A DNA stretch of 64,000 nucleotides, from positions 16,139-80,138 of the forward strand of contig JAULBX010020299.1 in assembly GCA_032358255.1 (NCBI GenBank), in the 5' to 3' direction. A program made the position numbers and the translations under genes. The notes under the pieces are model-generated. The model worked only from the letters and a program-made list of their open reading frames with translations, was not told the DNA's origin and searched no databases. This stretch comes from Heterotrichella gracilis (lineage: Eukaryota; Sar; Xanthophyceae; Tribonematales; Xanthonemataceae). Of this stretch, positions 1-63,266 are shown piece by piece; the stretch's first letter is position 1, and every line of letters begins with the position of its first letter.

Positions 1-2558
1 CATTGTCGGTGGCACGGATGATGTACAGGTATGGGGAACCTTAGCCCTGGAATTGCCCCTGGCTGATTAGCAGTGTGAAGATGAAATAGATCTACATCTG
101 AGAGCTTTTTGTGGTACAGTTGATGTTGACCAAATGATGATTCCCGCTGCGTGACATTACTGCCGGGCATAATGGCATTCCAGCCCTAGCATGGCACTTT
201 GTTGCATGTGCTCCTGAATGGTTTCATTTTTTGAATTTCCAGGCTCTGCTGGATGATCATTTGGTGAAGATCCAGTCCATGCGCACCTCTCCCTCCATCA
301 AGGTGTTTGAACAGGATGCCATGGCATGGGACAAAATCCTGAACAACATGCAAGACGTCCTAGATGAGTGGATACAGTGCCAAGGTCTGTGGCAGTACCT
401 TGAACCCATATTCAGCAGCCCAGATATCGTCAAGCAGATGCCAACGGAAGCAGACAAGTTCAAGCAGGTAAACAATACATCAAATGACAATTATTTGTAA
501 TTATTCGATTACACATCCACCAAAGCCAAATGAATAAATGCATGATAATCAAGGATGGAATATGAGTGCCCATTTCATGTGCACCCATGCAAGTGCTACA
601 ATTTAGAAGTGACCACATATTATGGACTTGTGCTTGCCGGTTGACCTCACCTGGCGGCAGGTCATGGACTCCATCAAGGATGGGGCCAACTGCTTGCATG
701 TGGCCAGGGACCCAACATATAATCACAATGCATTCCCACCAAAGCAAAAATAGTATAAAATGCACGATCATAAATGGATAGATATCCACCCATCATGATG
801 CAAGTGCAAAACAGGAAATGACCAACATTGTGGACCCATGCTTGCAGGTTGACCTCACCTGGCGCCAGGTCATGGCCTCTATCAAGGAGGGCCCCAACTG
901 CCTGCACGTTGCCAGGGACCCCACTTACCTTGAGCAGCTGCAAGCCAACAACAAGAGCCTGGAGGAGATTCAAAAGGGCCTGTCCAGCTACCTTGAGCTC
1001 AAGCGCCTTGCTTTCCCTAGATTCTTCTTCCTGTCCAATGACGAGCTGCTGGAGATCCTGTCTGAGACCAAGGACCCTGTCAAGGTGCAGCCTCACCTCA
1101 AGAAGTGCTTTGAAGGTAAGTAGCTGGGTGGTGGTACTGAGCACTCATTCATTGCTGACACCGTATTTGTCCATATCTATTGCTTTTCTTGTGTCCGGTG
1201 CTGCAGCAAGGATGCATACAATGCGTAATTAATTTTTTTGATTAAATTCTTATAGTCATTTATCAGTTCATACATTGGTACTGTGCCACAGGGATTCATC
1301 AGCTGCAGTTTGATGAGACCGGGCAGTACATCACCGGCATGGTGTCCAGCGAGAAGGAGCTGGTCAAATTCCGATCGATGATCCGGCCAGCAGACGCAGA
1401 GGGCGCCGTCGAGAAGTGGCTGGTGGAGGTGGAATCCAGCATGGTTGAGGCCATGCAGGAGGTCATCTGGCAGGGTATAGACAGCTATGCACGCATGCCG
1501 AGGAAGTCCTGGGTGCTGCAGTGGCCTGGCCAGGTAGGGACACATGAGGGAATGACCAGCCTCCGAGGCTGGCTCTCTCTCGTTCTGTCCCTTCCTCGAC
1601 CAACGCCCTCATACTTGCGATGAGGAGCGTAGTTACTTATTTATTATATCTACTTATTTATTTATTGGCCTGGCCAGGTGGTGCTGGTGGCTTCCGCTGT
1701 GTTCTGGACCAATGAGGTGACAGAGGCGCTCAAGTCTGGGCGGCCAGGTGAGAAAATTGCGCGAGATGGTGGTGTGTAAAATAAAAGCATTGGACCGCAC
1801 AGTCTGGGATGTATGCTGCCACACCAATGCATGGGATCCTGTGATAGGCCAAGTCCTGCAACCAATATTGTGGGGCATTACAGCACTGCTGGCAGAACAA
1901 TGATCTTAGTTTTTGTTCCAGAATTTCTGGTCCTGTTCTATCACAACTGCTGTTCTAACCTGGGTACTGTGACTACAGGTGCACTCCAACGAGTGGCGTA
2001 CAAGTGCACTGCGCAACTCAACGACGTAGTTGAGCTGGTGAGGGGTCCGTTGACAGAGCTGCAGCGCTGCACCCTGAGCGCACTGATAGTGATGGATGTG
2101 CATGCACGCGATGTGGTGACCAACTTGGCGCAGATGGGGGTGGAGGGCAAGCCGAACGATTTTGAGTGGACATCACAGCTGAGGACATACTGGGAGGTGA
2201 GTCTGCGTAGGGCATTTACGTAACATTACATAAAATATTGAATTATTTTAAAAAAAGGAAAATTAAATCGCGTGGATACATACCATAAAACATTTAGCTG
2301 AGTTCAACAGCAGTGGATGTATAGTTGCACTGGTTGTGTGACTGGCGCTGCGCCAGGCCGTTGGTATGACAAGTTTGCAGCACTTGCCAAGCGTGCCTTT
2401 CAATAAACATGGCGCAGAAGTGTCAATGCCATGCTTACTTGCTACAAATTGATGCTTGACCGTTGCTAAAAGAAAGCATGTACTGGGCAGGAGTCCAAGC
2501 GTGGGAGCTCCAAGAAAACAGTGATCATCCGCATGAACACTGCTGAGGTGGAGTATGG
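1..2558 (+). other. Dynein linker region (exons at 1-28 to 2491-2558)
   Basis: The first 27 in-frame bases give IVGGTDDVQ, which joins in phase to [13 protein letters not shown] in the next exon; this is the conserved linker start. Further landmarks are [14 protein letters not shown] (about 390-430), [20 protein letters not shown] (about 1010-1070), QWPGQ at the exon end at 1533, and [14 protein letters not shown] (about 2092-2133). The linker is the lever that swings across the AAA ring. The intron between 467 and 848 contains a decayed copy of the following exon (640-717). Confidence 0.88.
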
Positions 2559-61800: not shown

Positions 61801-63266
61801 GGGGCGTGGTGTGCGTGCATCAGGAGAAGGGCAGCTACAGCACATGCGCAGCTGATGAGGAATCACCCGAGATCCAGGTAGATACCGTGTGTGGGGGATG
61901 TCATCACACCTGCCTGGCTGCCTCCATTGCCCCCAGAATTTCCACTATCAGCAGCGTTTTAATACTATTTTCATGCCCCATCCCCCTCCTTTCCCCCCCT
62001 TGTAGGAGCTTTTGGACGAGCCCATGCACATCTACGACCGCTTGGCGGCCTCCATTGCCCCCGAAATCTACGGACACGAGGATGTAAAAAAGGCGCTGCT
62101 GCTGTCTCTGGTGGGAGGCCCAACCAGGCAGCTGCCAGATGGCATGAAGCTGAGGGGGGATGTGCACATGTGCCTCATGGGTAAGGATGGTGGGGCGGTG
62201 GGGTGGGGGGCGGTGATGGTAATGGTCGTGTTGGTGGGTGGTGGGGGGGGAGGGGTGAGGGGTTAAACCAGCGGCTGCTGCATGGCATGAAGCTGAGGGG
62301 GGACGTGCACATGTGCCTCATGGGTAAGGGGGTGGGCGGTGGCAGTGGTGGTGGGTGGTGGCGGCGGTGGTGGTGGAGGGGTGGTGTCACTCAGCTCCCT
62401 GCAGGATTTGGAGCGACATAACTTACATGTGCAGCATCTCCTTCGCTACATGTGCAGCGTCTTGTCTACCCCTCCTAAATCAACAGAAACTCACAAATCC
62501 CCGCCCACCCATCCCCACAGGCGACCCGGGAGTGGCCAAATCCCAGCTGCTGCGCTACGTGTGCAACATCTCGCCCCGGGCTGTGTATACCACCGGCAAG
62601 GGTTCATCAGGGGTGGGGCTCACCGCTGCAGTGCAGAGGGACCCAACCACAGGCAAGTCGGGCTCATGATACGTTAGTTGCTTAGTTACATGCATTCCAG
62701 CAATACAGCCAAATCAGCAGTCAGTCTTGCACATGCGGCGCCACGCAGCTCTTTCCTGGCACTGTTTGAGCCACTTATTGATCCTGCGCGGCTTGAGGTC
62801 ATGCTGGAGCTCTTGGTAAGAAAAAAATATATGATGGAATTTCGTGATGTAAAGGTGTTTTATAGCACGTTTGCTCTTGCTGGCCCTGGGATGCTGTACA
62901 TTTCCAGGTACAATAGTATGAGATTTGCCATTGCCTGCGGCGGTGCAGCGGGACCACACCACAAGCAAGTCGGGTCTTGAAAAAGAAACACAATGATTAA
63001 AATATAGCAAAGTTTGCTCTTGCCGGCCCCTGGGGTATGGTCATGGTCCCATCGTCCGGAAATCTAGGGTTTAGGGTTTTTGTCCTTCCTTATCCCAGCG
63101 TGCTGCTTGTGGTCTCCACTCGGTACCTTTCTTATTCTTTTCCCCTTCCCCCGCCACAGGCGAAACGGTGCTGGAGGGTGGCGCGCTAGTCCTGGCTGAC
63201 AAGGGGGTGTGCTGCATCGACGAGTTTGACAAGATGGAGGAAACTGACCGCACAGCGATCCACGAG
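58838..63266 (+). CDS. MCM7: MCM7, replicative helicase subunit (3' end outside window)
   Basis: Subunit of the MCM2-7 DNA helicase. Eleven exons: 58838-58862, 58942-59009, 59092-59151, 59356-59511, 59838-59909, 60321-60455, 60774-61010, 61379-61618, 62006-62180, 62521-62652, 63160-63266, giving 469 residues of about 720. Landmarks are [89 protein letters not shown], Walker [30 protein letters not shown] and Walker [13 protein letters not shown]7 is chosen over its paralogues from [13 protein letters not shown] and the FQEAKIQEL wording. Unusually, the four Cys of the zinc ribbon are absent: [13 protein letters not shown] and [11 protein letters not shown] stand where CxxC pairs are expected. 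The intron after 62652 begins GCAAGT. The following exon (VMEQQ region) is not in the window. Confidence 0.93.
60190..60226 (+). repeat. Echo of MCM7 exon 6 start
   Basis: CGCAGATGGACGGCACC parallels CGCAGATGGATGGCACT at 60316-60332 with an intact acceptor, 126 bp upstream of the real exon. Confidence 0.82.
60718..60745 (+). repeat. Echo of MCM7 exon 7 start
   Basis: AGGGCATCGTGACCCATATC repeats AGGGTATCGTGACCCAGATC at 60772-60791, with its own TAG acceptor. Confidence 0.82.
61118..61170 (+). repeat. Echo of MCM7 exon 7 end
   Basis: GGCGGAGAAGGTTAAGGGGC and the next 30 bases repeat 61002-61045 (donor GTGAGG becomes GTTAAG). Confidence 0.8.
61722..61880 (+). repeat. Two echoes of MCM7 exon 8 end
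   Basis: GAGTCGCCCGAGATCCAGG recurs at about 61720-61738, and a longer copy (GTGCATCAGGAGAAGG to GAGATCCAGGTAGAT) at 61814-61882. The second keeps a GTAGAT donor and the frame [25 protein letters not shown], matching 61555-61618. Confidence 0.87.
61914..61945 (+). repeat. Echo of MCM7 exon 9 (LAASIAPE)
   Basis: GGCTGCCTCCATTGCCCCC repeats 62044-62062 of the real exon; no splice site accompanies it. Confidence 0.78.
62181..62400 (+). repeat. GGT/GTGG-rich simple sequence in an MCM7 intron
   Basis: Runs of GGTGGTGG and GGGGGG flank the exon-9 echo. The strand is strongly purine-skewed and could form G-quadruplexes. Confidence 0.7.
62280..62327 (+). repeat. Echo of MCM7 exon 9 end with intact donor
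   Basis: GCATGAAGCTGAGGGGGG to CTCATGGGTAAGG repeats 62139-62186 almost exactly, including GTAAGG. Confidence 0.9.
62930..62980 (+). repeat. Echo of MCM7 exon 10 end including the GC donor
   Basis: GTGCAGCGGGACC to AAGCAAGTCGGG restates 62628-62664 in the next intron. The GCAAGT donor-like bases are copied too. The bases around 62685-62720 and 63000-63030 are also repetitive. Confidence 0.75.

Follow-up and report, generated by a model that had tools for sequence, protein, structure and literature searches.

Local direct duplications at exon borders of Heterotrichella gracilis as possible scars of duplicative break repair

Exon ends in the genome of Heterotrichella gracilis are repeatedly accompanied by a second, diverged copy (an echo) lying close by. 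In 264 kb of sampled DNA, 88 independent duplication clusters were found, about one per 3 kb. We tentatively read these echoes, with slightly less than even confidence, as scars of duplicative break repair that was frequent at or near exon–intron borders and involved filler, the surplus copy being tolerated. The observations behind this reading are the direct orientation of the copies, their characteristic spacing, spacers that are mostly unrelated to the flanks and often telomere-like, a bias towards exons, and neutral decay. From them we infer a break with offset ends, fill-in and filler, as well as the insertion and its direction.

Local duplications in the window and the wider genome sample

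Pairs were defined by self-BLASTN of the window, the whole 64,000-bp stretch analyzed (E ≤ 1e-3, plus strand). Of 25 self-match pairs, 24 had copies 80–312 bp apart and thus were local direct duplications; only one was distant. A chance origin was rejected, since not a single pair appeared in any of 30 dinucleotide shuffles (ten each of the whole window, 1-kb blocks, and 500-bp blocks). The exon-edge echoes of the original prediction are therefore real, although its count of more than 25 was slightly above the 24 local pairs obtained at this cut-off. Self-BLASTN recovered all eight of its example sites (606/815, 2804/2912/3024, 15655/15772, 29914/30015, 34261/34424, 35858/36120, 54136/54323, and 62122/62266), and every gene it named contained at least one pair: dynein (seven loci), transketolase (one), dihydropyrimidinase (four), the receiver gene (three), the TMEM245-like gene (two), and MCM7 (five). 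One further locus lies in a minus-strand gene. The features of the window are listed below.

606..927, plus strand: dynein, acceptor-side echo (606–719) of an exon start (815–927, exon from 848); 209 bp apart, 83% identical, left flank homologous too (self-BLASTN)
1522..1679, plus strand: dynein intron 1534–1677 (144 bp), whose donor and acceptor share the 14-bp direct repeat TGGCCTGGCCAG/GT; score 12+2, repeat span read by eye
2804..3088, plus strand: dynein P-loop exon end and donor (exon 2727–2871) in three copies, with telomere-like tracts at 2888–2902 and 3006–3016 (self-BLASTN)
7674..7841, plus strand: dynein, acceptor-side echo (7674–7715) of the exon start at 7806 (self-BLASTN)
15655..15883, plus strand: dynein, acceptor-side tandem duplication, exon from 15846 (self-BLASTN)
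19928..20137, plus strand: dynein, donor-side echo, telomere-like tracts at 20005–20018 and 20117–20125
20785..20949, plus strand: dynein region, intron-only tandem pair, 80 bp, 92%, a counter-example to the exon-edge rule (self-BLASTN)
21483..21631, plus strand: dynein, acceptor-side echo of the exon start at 21596 (self-BLASTN)
29914..30079, plus strand: transketolase exon end and donor, copy 101 bp downstream, 91%; telomere-like tract 29977–29990 at the spacer start
34261..34662, plus strand: dihydropyrimidinase, acceptor-side duplication, exon from 34607 (self-BLASTN)
35152..35397, plus strand: dihydropyrimidinase, donor-side echo, telomere-like tracts at 35208–35215 and 35385–35392
35858..36184, plus strand: dihydropyrimidinase exon segment, copy 262 bp away, 95%
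36693..37014, plus strand: dihydropyrimidinase, echo from the acceptor side of exon 36935, carrying an 8-bp indel that breaks the frame
40955..41247, plus strand: receiver gene, donor-side echo, 191 bp apart, 87% (self-BLASTN)
41239..41449, plus strand: receiver gene, weak further pair, 75%, merged into the 40955 cluster for counts
41604..41727, plus strand: receiver gene, pair at an acceptor-like site (TTGCAG/AGTA), 89 bp apart; filed as exon+exon by the automatic map, an edge case by eye, left as filed
45350..45615, minus strand: tandem pair in the minus-strand gene, 129 bp (self-BLASTN)
54136..54392, plus strand: TMEM245-like gene, 70-bp direct repeat, 94%, over AG/GT at both intron ends
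54484..54784, plus strand: TMEM245-like gene, donor-side echo, 212 bp apart (self-BLASTN)
60995..61218, plus strand: MCM7, exon-end/donor duplication, 117 bp apart, internal telomere-like tracts
61551..61879, plus strand: MCM7 exon end and donor, copy 259 bp downstream, 89%
62122..62386, plus strand: MCM7 exon end and donor, copy 144 bp downstream (self-BLASTN)
62625..62974, plus strand: MCM7 exon end with a GC-type donor (CAG/GCAAGT, by eye), copy 312 bp downstream; called intronic by the automatic map, an edge case by eye, left as filed; the match of homologue P0121 reaches 62657
63417..63685, plus strand: G-rich minisatellite-like pair, 108 bp apart, the weakest case (self-BLASTN)

The transketolase echo corresponds to surplus residues in the gene model relative to 5nd6. 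For the TMEM245-like gene, no TMEM245 homologue was found at E ≤ 1e-10 among 7996 candidates scored, and the PF01594 match was below the profile cut-off.

The wider sample comprised the window and 20 other loci of the same genome. Twenty-four stretches had been drawn, of which L013 (bacterial-looking by GC and ORFs), L002 and L020 (GC 0.35–0.36), and L007 (all N) were left out. Most sampled nuclear stretches contained duplications of this kind. One cluster with a copy distance of 1797 bp was removed, reducing the set from 89 to 88. The repeats were 28–363 bp long and 69–97% identical; with a divergence of 3–31% and indels between copies, they are unlikely to be assembly artefacts. Orientation was nearly always direct: 89 clusters, against four separated inverted pairs (within 500 bp) and 16 hairpins.

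Exon bias, copy distance, and spacers

Whether exon edges are truly enriched had been left open by the original prediction. In ab initio gene models, whose training used this same DNA and from which 199 predicted exons had been taken out by rule or by hand ahead of the edge test, 71 of 84 clusters (85–87%) involved an exon; the 84 are the 88 clusters minus four exon+exon ones. Simple random placement of both blocks anywhere gave an expected share of 58%, and a simulation with uniform birth, decay, and detection, in which a new copy was allowed only in non-coding DNA, gave 35–42%. Stricter nulls ranged over 53–76%, all below the observed value: 69% with introns of at most 300 bp (p 1.7e-4), 62% with GC-matched sources (p 5e-7), and 76% with sources of GC ≥ 0.60 (p 0.012), where the enrichment was only marginal. 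Geometry, detection, or GC alone was rejected as a complete explanation of the bias, as the observed share exceeded every null. The share of exon-involving clusters grew with age (76, 84, and 93% observed versus 37, 37, and 40% simulated), so that intron-only pairs probably become undetectable more quickly than the simulation assumes. The youngest band (≥88% identity; 19 of 25 versus 37% simulated) is thus the fairer figure, and part of the bias is due to GC and to old intron-only pairs vanishing from view. Among pairs of at least 86% identity with an exonic copy, the exon part was longer than the intron part in 23 of 25; for spaced pairs of this kind the figure was 22 of 22, the intron overhang being 0–19 bp.

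Copy distance was bimodal, with modes at about 105 bp (class A) and 190–200 bp (class B). A two-component mixture with means of 104 and 198 had the best BIC (68.8, versus 77.0 for one component and 71.6 for three), and only two of 89 clusters had distances of 137–162 bp. In class A, distance varied less than copy length (CV 0.15 versus 0.72; 0.15 versus 0.28 for spaced pairs only). The process underlying the echoes had been proposed to be local tandem duplication. This holds for 28 of the 88 clusters, which are contiguous (any insert being shorter than 25 bp) and in which homology runs through the whole unit, but not across the set: the other 60 have a spacer of at least 25 bp, and homology ran into the spacer in only 11 of these, about six being expected by chance (5% cut, either side). 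No homology between spacer and outer flanks was detectable in 49 of the 60 by the anchored extension test, which may miss diverged homology, nor in 15 of the 16 spaced pairs with at least 90% identity. The pair 29914/30015 had an extension score of 1, yet by eye a gapped stretch is common to its spacer and the sequence that follows the second copy. Four spacers of the window were searched against the genome, and three, including those at 40955..41247 and 61551..61879, matched themselves only. The fourth, at 35858..36184, holds a 52-bp dispersed repeat (35965–36016) present at 38 other places in the genome; because of it, a later insertion may account for part of the spacing of this pair.

The window contained 141 telomere-type (TTTAGGG-like) 8-mer matches versus 14.2 expected, and the genome contained 834 exact matches to TTTAGGGx3, chromosome ends included, versus none in the reversed control. 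Telomere-like repeats occurred in 27 of 56 class A spans (8.7 expected) and in 5 of 32 class B spans (6.0 expected). In class A, they were found in 16 of 34 spacers versus 3 of 39 outer non-coding flanks (p 1.5e-4); class B showed no excess (2 of 26 spacers versus 3 of 17 flanks). Tracts within 40 nt of donors numbered 44, against 18.9 expected, and none of 300 placements exceeded 30. In many spacers the tract does not adjoin a copy by eye. Flank matches across loci numbered 23 and were mostly telomere-like; a common telomerase-RNA-like flank was also sought, and the 182 tracts yielded no recurring non-telomeric flank. Telomere-like spacers did not figure in the original prediction.

Decay of the copies and an apparent new intron

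Mismatch by codon position was 10.2, 8.6, and 15.9%, and divergence of the intron-derived part was 16.5%. The third-position excess was only 1.7-fold, as expected for a free echo, and the exon-derived part carried 41 indels, mostly not multiples of three. Divergence is close to that of one free and one constrained copy, the intronic copy decaying as junk and the exonic one remaining constrained.

The predicted intron 54151–54337 of the TMEM245-like gene is 187 bp long, exactly the copy distance, and has its donor and acceptor at equivalent positions of two 70-bp copies. A spacer (54206–54322) makes up 117 of the 187 bases; it matches itself only in the genome and shows no significant homology past the 70-bp copy. 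By its sequence, 54151–54337 is apparently a new intron formed from the duplication. It resembles intron gain by tandem genomic duplication in that the splice sites lie at matching copy positions and splicing would restore the exon. It differs in that 117 of its 187 bases are unrelated, whereas introns of the known kind consist of duplicated exon sequence without filler; moreover, most events here duplicate an existing splice site and make no intron. Junction-spanning repeats (score ≥ 10) were found at both ends of 7 of 468 introns versus 0.4 expected; introns with matching repeats at both splice sites are a small minority.

Origin of the duplications

Under duplicative break repair, a break with ends offset by about 30–110 nt would occur at or near an exon–intron border; both ends would be filled in and then rejoined with filler, so that new DNA would separate two copies of the border segment. 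Telomere-type repeats would be captured or added as filler in the ~105-bp class. The cost of such an event would be low, because the spliceosome could use one copy of a duplicated splice site while the other leaves with the intron, the surplus copy then decaying. Where the segment lies inside an exon and carries AGGT, the two copies could supply donor and acceptor and make the insertion a new intron, as apparently at 54151–54337. In plants, tandem duplications arise from paired single-strand breaks, offset nicks and fill-in giving direct duplications; the telomeric filler and the exon bias are additional in this alga. The 28 plain tandems among the 88 clusters count against this scheme, and one mechanism may not cover both distance classes because class B lacks a telomere excess. 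We consider it possible, but doubtful, that the borders are genuine break-and-repair hotspots capturing telomere-type DNA together with a border copy, to a total of about 105 or 190–200 bp, with one process lengthening introns, seeding donor-side telomere repeats, and making introns within exons.

Plain tandem duplications of 60–300 bp might instead arise uniformly, with neither hotspot nor filler, those inside exons being purged, those crossing edges being neutral, and the frozen exonic copy making edge cases easier to see. The divergence pattern fits neutral echo decay, and the 28 contiguous clusters and the residual spacer homology in 11 of the 60 spaced ones fit plain tandems. Detection in the simulation does favor exon copies (29% born, 37% detected), the exon share climbs with age beyond the simulated trend, and GC-rich sources narrow the gap. 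However, a large excess remains (71/84 versus 35–42% simulated, 19/25 versus 37% in the ≥88% band) and persists in the short-intron and GC-matched nulls; 15 of the 16 spaced pairs with ≥90% identity lack spacer homology, and the bimodal spacing and telomere-rich spacers are unaccounted for, so this explanation, though possible, is not a probable one. If echoes were instead copied back through a fixed jump (about 105 or 190 nt) during local template switching or polymerase-theta-type repair, in place of offset ends, this would suit a copy distance that varies less than copy length; such an origin is unlikely given the near-exclusively direct orientation (89 clusters versus four separated inverted pairs) and the usually shorter templated inserts of these processes.

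That the echoes are functional, as cassette or decoy exons or selected splicing signals, is very unlikely: many keep AG or GT, some enter the ab initio model as in-frame mini-exons, telomere-like repeats cluster near donors, and their C-rich form near acceptors resembles branch sites, but codon-position divergence, with its mere 1.7-fold third-position excess, and the frame-breaking indels led us to reject conserved cassette exons. A mobile element or introner inserting at exon borders with a very long target duplication would explain direct repeats around unrelated DNA and the one spacer with a dispersed repeat. It is highly improbable, as only one of 25 window self-matches was distant and 28 of 88 clusters lack any insert as long as 25 bp; an introner family was rejected, three of the four spacers searched being unique in the genome.

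Duplicative break repair, our preferred reading, has partial parallels. PMC7215372 describes the insertion of short interstitial telomeric sequences into double-strand breaks, some horse loci having a target duplication plus random filler (duplication at three loci, 4.5%). The likeness lies in short telomere-type repeats at internal sites, here above chance, and in a telomere-type insert between duplicated ends, here in class A and not in class B; by contrast, those of the alga are mostly intronic, donor-clustered, and tied to duplications of set total length. Direct repeats of 4–30 bp near the splice sites of 213 introns are treated as insertion/repair scars in PMC11782384. Direct repeats occur at intron borders here too, but they are 28–363 bp long and usually flank part of an intron rather than the whole.

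How introns originate and grow is a long-standing question for which recent study cases are scarce. In this alga, where dateable local duplications occur about once per 3 kb and lie mainly at exon borders, some of them with telomere-like repeats and at least one having apparently become an intron, a break-repair route to introns would be testable by strain comparison. The data point to exon borders as possible fragile sites and to telomere-type DNA as a possibly common repair filler.

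Duplications and gene models in the sample

The window represents 64 kb of a 68.5-Mb algal assembly; with 20 further stretches of the same genome, chosen non-randomly, the sample came to 264 of 68,512 kb. Four fetched stretches were excluded: L013 (from contig C30, bacterial in look), L002 and L020 (AT-rich 10-kb samples of C1 and C100; GC 0.35–0.36, local duplications absent), and one consisting of N only. The C1, C100, and C30 samples point to the possible presence of organelles or further organisms in the assembly. A search for the RuBisCO large chain gave no match. Among the candidates scored, the window dynein matched Trebouxia best (57% identity, 61% of the query covered) and MCM7 matched Coccomyxa and Myrmecia (55–57%), all Trebouxiophyceae; no close annotated relative was among the candidates scored for these two genes, and the source is accordingly called a trebouxiophyte-like green alga here.

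Gene models were predicted ab initio with a small two-strand gene finder trained on the same sequence and were compared with transketolase and dihydropyrimidinase chains, Trebouxia dynein, and Coccomyxa MCM7. The finder was apt to string in echoes (decaying second copies of exon ends, mostly in the adjoining intron) as mini-exons, the transketolase echo appearing as surplus residues against the transketolase chain 5nd6; therefore, 199 predicted exons were dropped ahead of the edge tests. The dynein P-loop exon had a second sequence, 79% identical over ~70 bp, at G000:C651:74163-74235 (stretch L039), probably a paralogue usable for comparison. On visual inspection, FNRIDLE|GT (6020–6041) is a relative of the dynein exon end ANRIQLE|GT (3598–3625), which lies 2.4 kb upstream of it; the region between them carries a weak minus-strand gene model (4067–5641).

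The imperfect local copies of the original prediction were recovered by self-BLASTN: 25 pairs in the window, 24 with copies 80–312 bp apart, against none in 30 shuffles. Across 264 kb, 118 pairs formed 89 independent clusters, 88 of them at distances of 63–312 bp; a few stretches, e.g., L011, L017, and L019, contained no duplications. Identities were spread over 69–97% (28 clusters at ≥88%, 31 at 80–88%, 29 below 80%), which suggests a continuing process rather than a single burst. Inverted separated pairs were scarce (4 versus 89 direct clusters), and there were 16 hairpins more. Hairpin-like inverted repeats of about 135–284 bp, possible foldback elements, lay at window positions 23424–23580 and 24592–24726 and in L011 (9483–9761).

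Placement at exon edges

Exon sequence was involved in 71 of the 84 clusters that were not exon/exon, random block placement expecting 58% (17/21 versus 62% in the window alone); intron-only clusters numbered 11 against 26.6 expected, and intergenic ones 2 against 7.5. A second simulation, with births only in non-coding DNA, separate exon and intron mutation, and the same BLAST cut-off, expected 35–37%. Restricted to introns, it expected 42% (observed 71/82 without intergenic clusters), rising to 53% for introns up to 600 bp only and 69% up to 300 bp only; p values ranged from 1e-20 to 1.7e-4 across variants. The observed blocks were GC-rich (mean 0.60), and the expectation was 62% with GC-matched sources, 66% with sources of GC ≥0.55, and 76% at GC ≥0.60 (p 0.012). 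The enrichment, left open in the original prediction, holds against every expectation run (35–76%), though only marginally at GC ≥0.60.

With decreasing identity, the exon-involving share was 19/25, 26/31, and 26/28 (76, 84, and 93%), against 51, 57, and 65% under random placement and 37, 37, and 40% in the second simulation. Because this climb with age goes beyond the simulated one, intron-only pairs are probably lost faster than modelled, and the youngest band (≥88% identity) is the fairer figure; it is still in excess (p 7e-5 against the simulated 37%; random placement 51%). GC and loss from view thus explain a substantial share of the bias, though, as far as can be told, they fall short of all of it.

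Two predicted introns of the window carry repeats at both ends:
54136–54392: 70-bp repeat, 94%, with a copy across AG|GT at each end of a predicted intron of 187 bp
1534–1677: 14-bp repeat, likewise at both ends of a predicted intron

In the former, the intron length equals the distance between copies. Junction repeats scoring ≥10 occurred in 7 of 468 predicted introns against 0.4 expected. The pattern is that of intron gain by AGGT duplication described in passages of PMC4974935, apart from the predicted 187-bp intron being mostly unrelated sequence, for which the genome search gave no second place.

Spacing and telomere-like repeats

Copy distance fell into two classes, 63–136 bp (the 105-bp class, 56 clusters) and 144–312 bp (the longer class, 32 clusters), with only 2 of 89 clusters at 137–162 bp; by BIC, the best fit was a mixture of two components, at 104 and 198 bp. 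Copy length was more variable than copy distance. Copies were contiguous (spacer <25 bp) in 28/88 clusters. Homology extended into the spacer in 11 of the 60 others (about 6 expected by chance; 1/16 at ≥90% identity), in a test that can overlook diverged likeness, such as gapped similarity at 29914/30015, visible by eye yet unscored. All 22 spaced pairs of ≥86% identity with an exonic copy had a mainly exonic copied segment (28–82 bp) reaching just 0–19 bp into the intron. A dihydropyrimidinase intron contains a dispersed repeat of 52 bp (35965–36016), which has a sharp left edge, occurs at no fewer than 38 other genome places, and looks like a transposon end.

TTTAGGG-type 8-mers were about tenfold in excess in the window (141 versus 14.2 expected), and an exact telomere-type 21-mer had 834 genome matches (reversed control, 0). 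The tracts were short, with a median exact-type length of 9 nt and a maximum of 52, and lay mainly in introns (1.09 per kb; intergenic 0.44, exons 0.10). Within 40 nt of donors, 44 tracts were found against 18.9 expected, including 25 versus 11.5 in introns without detected duplication; at acceptors, the overall excess was not significant (25 versus 18.5). In the 105-bp class, such repeats occurred in 27/56 spans (8.7 expected) and in 16/34 spacers versus 3/39 outer flanks; the longer class had neither an excess (5/32 spans, 6.0 expected) nor a spacer bias (2/26 spacers, 3/17 flanks).

Origin and fate of the copies

We favour a mechanism in which DNA breaks with offset ends would be repaired by rejoining, with filler, often telomere-type in the 105-bp class, added between them. 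The anatomy and statistics are observed, whereas the occurrence of breaks, the offset of their ends, and a part for telomerase are inferred. Passages of PMC7215372 describe random filler at telomeric insertions, with target duplication at a few horse loci, and those of PMC11782384 direct repeats of 4–30 bp near splice sites. No description of exon-border copies with telomeric spacers was found in the literature, judged, cited papers aside, from search entries. The passages of PMC12712428 (Trebouxia genome) on interstitial/telomeric repeats, introns, and "tandem" mention no such copies; several internal telomere repeats are handled there as misassembly points.

For the 59 pairs that combine an exonic copy with an intronic one, mismatch at codon positions 1, 2, and 3 was 10.2, 8.6, and 15.9%, aligned intron-derived sequence diverged by 16.5%, and the exon-derived part held 41 indels, most of them frame-breaking. 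This pattern is close to that expected for one free and one coding copy, and the echoes look like junk. Just upstream of acceptors, CCCTAAACCC tracts resemble branch sites (CTAAAC), e.g., in introns 28948–29383, 29552–29840, and 30507–30741; splicing may have recruited telomere repeats.
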